Source: Polyangiaceae bacterium
GTDB taxonomy: Bacteria > Myxococcota_A > Polyangia > Polyangiales > Polyangiaceae
NCBI GenBank assembly: GCA_029261965.1
Contig: JAJDAH010000188.1
Location: 1 to 64,000 of the forward strand
Length of the DNA stretch: 64,000 bases
Direction of reading: 5' to 3'
Shown: one piece after another, positions 18,183 through 57,961 of the stretch
Position numbering within the stretch: position 1 is the first letter of the stretch
Layout of the letters: every line of letters begins with the position of its first letter
Notes under the pieces: generated by a model
Databases searched by the model: none
Seen by the model: the letters and a program-made list of their open reading frames with translations, nothing else
What the model was told of the DNA's origin: nothing
Made by a program: the position numbers and the translations under genes

Positions 18183-19097
18183 GTGGAACCCAACGCTCGC
18201 GCAGCCGTGATGCTCGCCCTTCTCGCCGCGAGCTGCGGGGGAACCTCCGGGGACGGCTTGTTCGACGAGGGGAGCTTCGGAGGCAGCGGCCCGCGCGACG
18301 CGAGCACGAACGGCGCCGGAGGATCCGCTGCCTCCGCCGGTATGCCCGCAGGGTCGGGTGGCTCCGCCGTGGGCGGCAGCACGGCGGTTGGTGGAAGTGC
18401 CGCAGTCGGCGGCAGTACGGCCGTCGGCGGGGCTGGCGGCGCTCAGGGTGGTAGCGGCGGCGGCGCTCAGGGCGGCGGCGCGGCTCTTGGTGGCGGACCG
18501 CCGACCGACCCTTTCACCGCCGCCTCACCCCCGCCGCCATGCCCGCCCGACGTGCCGCCGCCACTTCAGTGCAACATCCTCACCGACAACCTCGCCGGTG
18601 GCTGCATCTACACGCACGGAGGCGGCCAGATCGTCAACTGTGTCTGCGCGGGAACTTGGGTGTGCACCGGCGCGGAACCCTGCGCCACCGACGGGCACTG
18701 CACCAGCGCCCCGCGCTGTGATCCAATGTTCGGCTCGTGCGTGGAGTGCTCGAACAACGGCGAATGTGGCGGCGAGCGGCCCGTTTGTCATCCGTTGTTT
18801 CGACGCTGCGTTCAGTGCCTGAACGCGGGCGATTGTGGGCCGCCTGCACCGTACTGCGATCTCGCCAGCAATCGCTGCGTGCCCTGCATGACCGATCTCG
18901 ATTGTCCCGCGGGCTCCGCCACGCCGGTGTGCGAGCCGTTGGTAAAAGTCTGCGTCGAGTGCAACAACGACGGCCATTGTGAGGAGCCCGGGCTGCCGAT
19001 CTGCCAACTGCCGGGGAGTCGCTGCGTGCAATGCACCGGCGACCAGCACTGCGCCGACGCCGGCACCTGCGACATCTTTACCGCCACCTGCCGCTAG
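18183..19097 (+). CDS. Gly-linker, Cys-repeat lipoprotein
   Basis: 304 aa from GTG. Lipobox AASC (Cys18), then a Gly-rich linker (about 30-105) whose GGSTAVGGSAAVGG units come from short in-frame DNA repeats. From about 125 to the end there are some 25 Cys arranged in repeats of roughly 35 residues with the pattern C-x2-C-x4-D/E-C-x6-PxC-x5-RC. This looks like disulphide-stabilised extracellular repeats known from myxobacterial surface proteins. No catalytic motif. It ends directly in the palindromic element at 19096, which may act as its transcription terminator. Confidence 0.8.
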   Translation: MEPNARAAVMLALLAASCGGTSGDGLFDEGSFGGSGPRDASTNGAGGSAASAGMPAGSGGSAVGGSTAVGGSAAVGGSTAVGGAGGAQGGSGGGAQGGGAALGGGPPTDPFTAASPPPPCPPDVPPPLQCNILTDNLAGGCIYTHGGGQIVNCVCAGTWVCTGAEPCATDGHCTSAPRCDPMFGSCVECSNNGECGGERPVCHPLFRRCVQCLNAGDCGPPAPYCDLASNRCVPCMTDLDCPAGSATPVCEPLVKVCVECNNDGHCEEPGLPICQLPGSRCVQCTGDQHCADAGTCDIFTATCR

Positions 19098-19191
19098 TGT
19101 GGTGGACCAGGGGTCCACCACACTCTGGAAAGAATCGGGACACGGATCAGATCTGTGCCTTTGCCGTCGAATCACAGATCCAGGGGACTAG
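19096..19191 (+). repeat. Palindromic dispersed repeat, copy 1 (long form)
   Basis: Starts on the last two bases of the stop codon of the Cys-repeat lipoprotein. The first unit is a perfect 13-bp inverted repeat (19096-19108 with 19112-19124, loop agg). A spacer (19125-19142) leads into a 35-nt segment (19143-19177) holding most of a second perfect 8-bp hairpin (gatctgtg 19150-19157 with cacagatc 19173-19180), then the tail caggggactag. A diverged copy lacking the 35-nt segment lies in opposite orientation at 57837-57897. No poly-T follows the stems. Confidence 0.85.
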
Positions 19192-56401: not shown

Positions 56402-57150
56402 CACGACCGGGTGAGGGCGACGGCCTCGCTCATGACGGCGCCGATTTCGGCGCGAATGACGAGATCCGCCAAGGGATCGAGCTCCGTTGGCTCGCGGTTG
56501 ATGATGACCAAGCGCGAGCCGGCCTCTTTGGCGAGCGCGGGGAACCCCGCTGCGGGAAACACGACGAGCGACGAGCCGATGGCCAAAAACAAGTCGCAAG
56601 CCAGGCTCACCTCCTTCGCCCTTCTCATCGGCAGCTCGGGCATGGATTGCCCGAAGGAAATGGTCGCTGTCTTGACGATGCCACCGCACGCATCGCAGAT
56701 CGGCAACGTCTCGTCTTTTTTGAATTCTCGAAGAATGTCGTCGAGCTCGTAGCGGCGAGCGCAGTGCAAACACGTCGCGTAGGTCGCGTTACCGTGCAGC
56801 TCGATAATCTGGTTCGGAGGCACGCCGCTCTTCTGGTGGAGGCCGTCGATGTTCTGGGTGACGACGGCCGCCAAGCGGCCCTGTTCGACGAGCTCGGCGA
56901 TGGCGTTGTGCCCGGCATTGGGTTCGGCGACGGTCATCGTCTCGTCGAAGGTGAGCTTTCGCCTCCAGGACTCGCGTCGCATCTCCTCGCTCCGAACGAA
57001 ATCGGAAAACTCGATGGGCAAGACCTTGCTCCAGACTCCGCCCGGGCTCCGGAAGTCCGGGATCCCCGATTCGGTGCTGATGCCAGCGCCGGTAAACGCC
57101 ACGCCACTCGTCGACGAAACGAGCAGCTCCGCTAGCTCCGCGGCGCTCAC
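56401..57150 (-). CDS. Sirtuin NAD-dependent protein deacylase
   Basis: 249 aa from GTG 57150, overlapping the TetR stop (GTGA). Motifs: 'GAGISTESGIPDFRS' (about 20-34), 'TQNIDGLHQKSG', catalytic His in 'ELHGN', and a Zn site of two CxxC (CLHC, CDAC), with 'NREP' and 'IRAEIGAVM' towards the end. Soluble, ~27 kDa. It removes acyl groups from Lys using NAD+. NadE in this window makes its cosubstrate but is unlinked. Confidence 0.93.
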   Translation of the reverse strand: MSAAELAELLVSSTSGVAFTGAGISTESGIPDFRSPGGVWSKVLPIEFSDFVRSEEMRRESWRRKLTFDETMTVAEPNAGHNAIAELVEQGRLAAVVTQNIDGLHQKSGVPPNQIIELHGNATYATCLHCARRYELDDILREFKKDETLPICDACGGIVKTATISFGQSMPELPMRRAKEVSLACDLFLAIGSSLVVFPAAGFPALAKEAGSRLVIINREPTELDPLADLVIRAEIGAVMSEAVALTRS

Positions 57151-57824
57151 TTCTCTCGCCGCGACCCGTCCATGCCCTGGAGCCCGCCGCTGTCGATGAG
57201 GACCCGCGTGAGGCCCTTGATGTAGGCCCGAGCTCGATCGCCGGCGGGGTCGTCTCGGGTAGGCAACATCCACATCGACCCCCCCTGCATCGCGTCGATG
57301 ACCACTCTGGCGTGCTCGTCGAAGTTCGGCAGCTTTGCGGCGTCCGAGAAGAGCTCGCGGGCCTGACGCTGGAGCTCTTCGAGGTGCGAAGCGACGATCG
57401 GTCGCAGACTCTCGCCGAGCTCGGCGTCGGCGCGGGCGGATACGTACAGCTCGCACATCACTTGATTGCGAGACCCCGAAACGATGTCCCACAACAGATC
57501 GAACGTCGTCTCGAGGCGATTCTCGTCACCCTCCACCTCTCGTACGACCCGGTGGAAATCCTCGACGAGGAGCTCGAGCAAGTGTTCCGCGGCGGAGGCC
57601 ACCAACTCCGCTTTGGTGGAGAAGTGCTTGAAGAGCGCACCCTGCGAAACTCCGGCACGCTGACAAACGGCCGGCGTCGTCAGTCGCGCGTAACCGACCT
57701 CGACGAGCTCTTCGATCGTGGCGTCGAGCAGCTTGCGGTGTGTGCTCTCCCGCCGCTCGGCTTGCGTTCGCCGCCGTTTTCCGGTCCCCGGTTCGGTCGC
57801 CACCGTCGAGAGACTACCTCGCAC
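57147..57824 (-). CDS. TetR-family transcriptional regulator
   Basis: 225 aa. HTH at about 27-75 with 'RKLLDATIEELVEVGYARLTTPAVCQRAGVSQGALFKHFSTKAELVASA'. The C-terminal ligand domain is unclassified. The first seven codons could be spare (alternative GTG at 57803). It leads the operon and probably controls it; a palindromic repeat lies 12 bp upstream of its start. Such regulators respond to small hydrophobic ligands. Confidence 0.88.
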   Translation of the reverse strand: MRGSLSTVATEPGTGKRRRTQAERRESTHRKLLDATIEELVEVGYARLTTPAVCQRAGVSQGALFKHFSTKAELVASAAEHLLELLVEDFHRVVREVEGDENRLETTFDLLWDIVSGSRNQVMCELYVSARADAELGESLRPIVASHLEELQRQARELFSDAAKLPNFDEHARVVIDAMQGGSMWMLPTRDDPAGDRARAYIKGLTRVLIDSGGLQGMDGSRREK

Positions 57825-57836
57825 CGCCAGAGCGCC

Positions 57837-57897
57837 CTAGTCCCCTGGATTGTCCCGGTTCTTTCGAGAGTGTGGTGGGCTCCTGGTCCACCAGACT
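57837..57897 (-). repeat. Palindromic dispersed repeat, copy 2 (short form)
   Basis: Reverse complement matches 19096-19142 at 42 of 47 positions and the tail atccaggggactag (14 of 14), but lacks the 35-nt insert of the 19 kb copy. The stem is preserved with two mismatches. It sits in the divergent gap between the TetR gene and the M28 peptidase lipoprotein, so it is not acting as a terminator of an upstream gene here. Confidence 0.85.
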
Positions 57898-57961
57898 GCA
57901 GGCCATGGAAAACGCCCGTTTTCGCGCGGGCGCGCCGATGGTTCCGCGATACGATGTCGGC

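Follow-up and report, generated by a model that had tools for sequence, protein, structure and literature searches.

For the Repeat Unit of Pneumococcus (RUP), the insertion sequence IS630-Spn1 has been proposed as the mover (PMC3049150). Within the same family of insertion sequences, ISY100 was found to insert at TA and to duplicate it (PMC2170065), and IS630 itself prefers the TA within CTAG, according to the title of Tenzen and Ohtsubo (1991) as cited in PMC2170065. Here we analysed a repeat with similar ends from a Polyangiaceae bacterium (assembly GCA_029261965.1), starting from two copies in a 64,000-nt stretch of contig JAJDAH010000188.1 (the window). The repeat was very probably a new non-autonomous MITE of the IS630 family (Tc1/mariner superfamily), 143-145 nt long, that had formerly moved in trans.

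Two copies in the window and the family in the genome

The first-pass annotation had described two related copies with a 13-bp inverted repeat, 47 shared bases, an identical tail and 35 nt absent from copy 2, and all of this was confirmed in the sequence. Namely, copy 2 was 89% identical to copy 1 over 47 bases (57851-57897, minus strand, BLAST) and agreed with its 3' tail, ATCCAGGGGACTAG (19178-19191), at 14 of 14 positions (57837-57850), while the 35 nt at 19143-19177 of copy 1 were missing. The arms of hairpin I in copy 1 were 19096-19108 and 19112-19124. The right boundary of copy 1 stood as proposed; its left boundary was moved from 19096 to 19094, since the CTAG on both sides belongs to the element. 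At copy 2, the right CTAG was retained and the left flank read GCAG where CTAG was expected. The coordinates of all features are collected in Table 1.

Table 1. Features of the two copies and of their neighbourhoods in the window
Feature	Position	Strand	Basis
Copy 1, internally deleted 98-nt form (both CTAG included) of the 143-nt IS630-type MITE	19094-19191	+	Covariance-model R1 match, E 7.9e-20; alignment to consensus (inner hairpin lost)
Left CTAG of copy 1, target site; supplies the TAG stop of gene 18183-19097	19094-19097		Sequence, ORF list
Hairpin I of copy 1, perfect 13-bp palindrome beginning within the left CTAG	19096-19124	+	Sequence, folding
Remnant of the 3' stem-loop module in copy 1 (35-nt segment of the first-pass annotation)	19143-19177	+	Comparison with full-length copies
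Right terminal repeat of copy 1, ATCCAGGGGA-CTAG, like an IS630 insertion sequence end	19178-19191	+	Sequence comparison
Gene upstream of copy 1, 304 aa; TAG stop inside the left CTAG of copy 1	18183-19097	+	ORF list, sequence
Gene downstream of copy 1, convergent, 351 aa	19229-20284	-	ORF list
Copy 2, 63-nt derivative without the entire 3' stem-loop module	57837-57899	-	Covariance-model match, E 2.9e-6; BLAST; alignment
ORF, 225 aa, TetR-like by inspection only; start adjoins copy 2	57147-57824	-	ORF list

Copy 1 was thus placed between convergent genes, with its left CTAG serving as a stop codon. The downstream gene probably encodes a cyclic-di-GMP signalling protein of the GGDEF/EAL type, and its distant DNA matches carried the annotation 'EAL domain-containing protein'. 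By inspection, copy 2 lay upstream of two genes, the left of which was missed by the gene caller.

The source genome comprised 9.59 Mb in 480 contigs. Searching it with BLAST and a covariance model, as the first-pass annotation had proposed, yielded about 50 dispersed copies with flanks unrelated to each other, which bore out its suggestion of a small non-autonomous mobile family. A 111-nt query found about 36-40 places. The 14-nt 3' end had 49 matches at no more than one mismatch and the 5' end had 31, against none for the reversed control of the former and none for the control of the latter. The likeness of copies 1 and 2 was far above chance. Copies truncated at the 5' side with an intact 3' end were in excess, and they often lay directly 3' of the TGA stop of a gene. 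About half of all 3' ends belonged to such remnants, an excess that cut-and-paste movement does not predict.

The full-length element measured 143 nt (143-144 nt in most well-preserved copies) with CTAG on each side. From 5' to 3', its first half consisted of CTAG, hairpin I (TGTGGTGGACCAGGAGTCCACCACA), CTCTGGAAAGAACCGGGA and CACGGATCAG. This was followed by stem II enclosing hairpin III (AAAACTCGGCGGCC...GGCCGCCGAGTTTT), then by CACAGATCCAG, GGGA and the final CTAG. Hairpin III was very strong and GC-rich, and it was nested inside the long-range stem II, which closed near the right end. A complete 3' module was present in most well-preserved copies. Copies without hairpin III were 93-102 nt long; copy 1 was one of them, the GC-rich inner hairpin having been deleted within its 19143-19177 segment. 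Loss of the entire 3' module characterised a 66-nt class and copy 2. The module was bounded by the direct repeats CACGGATCAG and CACAGATCCAG, and the joint in the 66-nt class was either CACGGATCCAG or CACAGATCCAG. The shorter forms would have arisen most simply by slippage deletion between these repeats. Since the joints matched such a deletion, we read the 35-nt segment as a remnant and not as an insertion. The 'insertable' hairpin of the first-pass annotation thus had its direction reversed: the 143-nt form was full length, and the shorter forms had lost parts of the 3' module.

Other repeats accompanied this family (F1). A second CTAG-bounded hairpin family, F2, was about 210-218 nt long with ends CTAGTGC..GTCTC, and it had its own sequence and a similar fold layout. 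One example (C224:3184-3393; L005, L076) sat between two F1 copies with CTAGs in common, and about 20 other places were found. A third repeat, TCCCTAATCAAGCGAGTGCG, began at the CTAG of F1 copies (flanks L068, L012 and L050). At one locus (L023), a tandem CTAG run (ctagctagctagctagctag) adjoined an F1 copy and may have been left by successive insertions and excisions. The consensus had no match among plasmid and phage records, and 24 matches of viral contigs to a 14-mer were within chance by a rough estimate.

IS630-type ends and preference for CTAG

The element was short and contained no transposase ORF. When its last 19 nt were scanned over species genomes, one other organism was matched, an Acidobacteria-labelled MAG (L232, JABMNV010000193.1), and the match was the right end of a complete IS630 insertion sequence (L232:1903-3091, 1189 nt). 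The agreement with its terminal repeat extended over 22 nt; as the 19 nt were the search key, only the extension and the surrounding insertion sequence count as evidence. The insertion sequence encoded a transposase of 363 aa (NF033545, E 7e-77; PF13358, DDE_3, E 6e-25) between 32-nt inverted repeats starting CTAGTCCCCTGGA. Moreover, the TAG stop of its upstream gene lay inside the flanking CTAG, the same arrangement as at copy 1. The presence of the same end in an Acidobacteria MAG and in a Polyangiaceae repeat suggests either inter-phylum transfer or a mis-binned contig.

Only the right end of the source-genome family matched this insertion sequence well; the left end matched it poorly (7/14, p 0.25). 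The right end of the element L270 in genome G136 was identical at 18 of 18 positions to an IS630 end in genome G001 (L235) that had been retrieved independently, and the right ends of the elements in G046 and G008 agreed at 13 of 14 positions beyond CTAG with the opposite end of the L232 IS630. The two ends of the element formed inverted repeats with each other (for example 13/14 in G008, L265). The end sequence also recurred a third time, inside the element and pairing with the right end. This internal occurrence was clear in G008 and G039 and weak in the source genome, G046 and F2; it was not significant in G026 and G136 and so was not general. Proteins matching the L232 transposase occurred in 33 of 108 genomes of the host family, and the ends of these IS630s, where intact, were inverted repeats starting CTAGT.

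An intact IS630 transposase was not found in the source assembly, although in 480 contigs this absence is no proof. The sole trace was a 164-aa DDE_3 fragment sharing 43% identity with the L232 transposase, and a Pfam survey of IS630 fragments in the source genome, G008 and G026 gave no intact partner. A MITE can outlive its autonomous partner, and a partner in the same genome is usual, not strictly required. In G008, a split IS630 transposase (C32:11121-12022) was 64-66% identical to that of L232 and had the end CTAGTCCACTGAGTCAC nearby; it is a candidate for a decayed helper in that genome.

The following course of events would fit. An IS630 transposase, now absent from this genome or unassembled, would have bound the ends of the element, excised it and pasted it into the TA inside CTAG, leaving CTAG on both sides by duplication of the TA or of the whole CTAG. 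The element consists of a left end folding back on itself as hairpin I, a spacer, stem II with hairpin III inside, and the right end. Deletions between short direct repeats may later have removed modules and so produced the 98-, 66- and about 60-nt forms, copies 1 and 2 included.

CTAG was depleted about 5-fold in the window (37 in 64 kb against about 204 expected), yet it stood on both sides of most copies. The placement of 24 analysable copies was determined with a simple codon-usage gene caller. The TAG stop of a neighbouring gene lay inside the flanking CTAG at 14 of 24 copies, compared with 3 of 34 other CTAG sites of the window (p 7.5e-5). Convergent genes flanked 12 of 20 copies, compared with a background of 10 in 48 gene pairs (p 0.004), and no copy in the called set lay between divergent genes. 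Both orientations relative to genes occurred. This bias may follow from the rarity of CTAG within genes and from its tolerance where it provides a TAG stop. Empty sites were sought in sister genomes, where only coding stretches matched and none across a junction, since these genomes were too diverged.

A fold shared by six genera

Using a covariance model (A1, R1) built from 11 copies of the source genome only, we detected relatives 143-145 nt long, spread over six genera of a single family (6 of 183 genomes of the order); the same search of the 183 genomes found no relatives in the rest of the order outside the host family. The 3' end of the source-genome element was present in only 4 of 108 family genomes, and sister species in the same genera did not have it, a patchy distribution that we take to be in keeping with mobile DNA. 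The sequence of hairpin I differed by genus (GTGTGGTGGAC, GTGGAAAC, GTCACCTGGAAC, GTGGCGTGTCT, CGTGGTGAATC and GTGGCGAGTC), and its start was always at the CTAG position or a few bases from CTAG.

The source-genome element folded with a z of -7.5, and representatives of three other genera folded alike without the covariance model (z -6.2 to -8.3). In the model-fitted alignment, two-sided changes were seen in 37 of 42 pairs and the covariation score was 0.50, compared with 0.05-0.07 for slid versions; these figures are upper estimates, since the alignment is biased towards the structure and includes 10 antisense re-matches among its rows. Exceptions in hairpin I were G-T in 9 cases and A-C in 4, a ratio that does not point decisively to a single RNA strand.

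Recognition of MITEs usually relies on sequence, and such elements fade fast. To keep both fold and length in different genera with an almost wholly changed sequence is unusual for elements of this kind. One explanation, which we put forward tentatively and regard as rather doubtful, is that the fold is a selected device and the terminal sequence has been repeatedly rebuilt to fit the available IS630 transposase, so that the parasite would be defined by its shape and would switch helper. Among the papers covered by our literature search, none dealt with such repeats in myxobacteria or Sorangium.

Alternative readings and comparison with known systems

The preference for gene ends raised the possibility of a domesticated bidirectional terminator or 3'-end processing structure, selected at these positions. 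Contact with stop codons and the convergent placement would agree with it, as would the stable folding (z -7.5) and the A-tract and T-tract flanking hairpin III in full copies (CAAAACTCGG...CCGAGTTTTG); pneumococcal SPRITE, which is terminator-like, shows the same convergent bias (PMC3049150). However, a scan for intrinsic terminators (a GC-rich stem followed by a T-run) was negative for copy 1, which the first-pass annotation had considered a possible terminator, and for one full-length copy. The T-tracts were not preserved in other genera, copies occurred in both orientations and the hairpin was absent from copy 2, while the choice of CTAG as target combined with purifying selection also accounts for the bias. 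A terminator role is possible, though unsupported by terminator scans, and we consider selection of the repeat as such a structure unlikely.

The strong covariation and the excess of 5'-truncated copies could also indicate a structured RNA gene or an RNA-mobilised, SINE-like element, with the fold selected as RNA and the truncation due to reverse transcription. This was highly improbable: no Rfam family matched (0 matches in the window), the ends were IS630-type inverted repeats, the hairpin I exceptions did not decide for a single RNA strand, and the truncations abutted genes, as decay by deletion would give. A further reading is a REP-like element mobilised by a Y1 (HUH) tyrosine transposase of the REP-associated type; the first-pass annotation had named a REP-like family as one option and had proposed looking for a REP-associated tyrosine transposase or similar. 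The repeat was indeed palindromic, intergenic and present in many copies, the CTAG at the foot of the hairpin resembled the REP foot tetranucleotide, and the genome had three Y1_Tnp genes. Nevertheless, none of the three had either repeat end within about 1.5 kb on either side, which refuted a RAYT/REP system for these loci; together with the length of 143 nt, the CTAG on both sides and the right ends that match those of IS630, this made the REP reading extremely improbable.

This probable IS630-type MITE, a non-autonomous element, retained its length and fold over six genera while stems and ends changed together, and different members bore the ends of different IS630s. This raises the testable question of whether IS630 transposases need or profit from fold-back ends, and whether the element can swap helpers. 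The choice of CTAG puts the elements on TAG stops between convergent genes, where the harm may be small. For annotation, the family accounts for Polyangiaceae repeats otherwise taken for terminators or REPs.

Among known systems, RUP (about 100 nt, about 100 copies; PMC3049150) is likewise non-autonomous and foldable with IS630-like terminal inverted repeats. In contrast to RUP, the present element is 143-145 nt long with three nested or serial hairpins, sits at CTAG with reuse of stop codons, shows modular deletions, has an architecture common to six genera with different end sequences, and has no intact partner insertion sequence in the same genome. With IS630 and ISY100 (PMC2170065) it probably shares the TA target, which IS630 prefers within CTAG, and it has inverted ends starting CTAGT... 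like those of the host-family IS630s. It differs from them in having no ORF: only the ends are common, and hairpins I-III are absent from the L232 insertion sequence. Compared with REP/BIME sequences and their RAYT (PMC2817692), the element is similarly palindromic, intergenic and present in many copies, but it is longer, occupies CTAG sites, has IS630 ends and shows no association with a Y1 transposase. Finally, pneumococcal SPRITE is also hairpin-bearing and enriched between convergent genes; it has no known IS partner and resembles a Rho-independent terminator (PMC3049150), whereas the Polyangiaceae element has IS630-like ends and no terminator that passes the scan.
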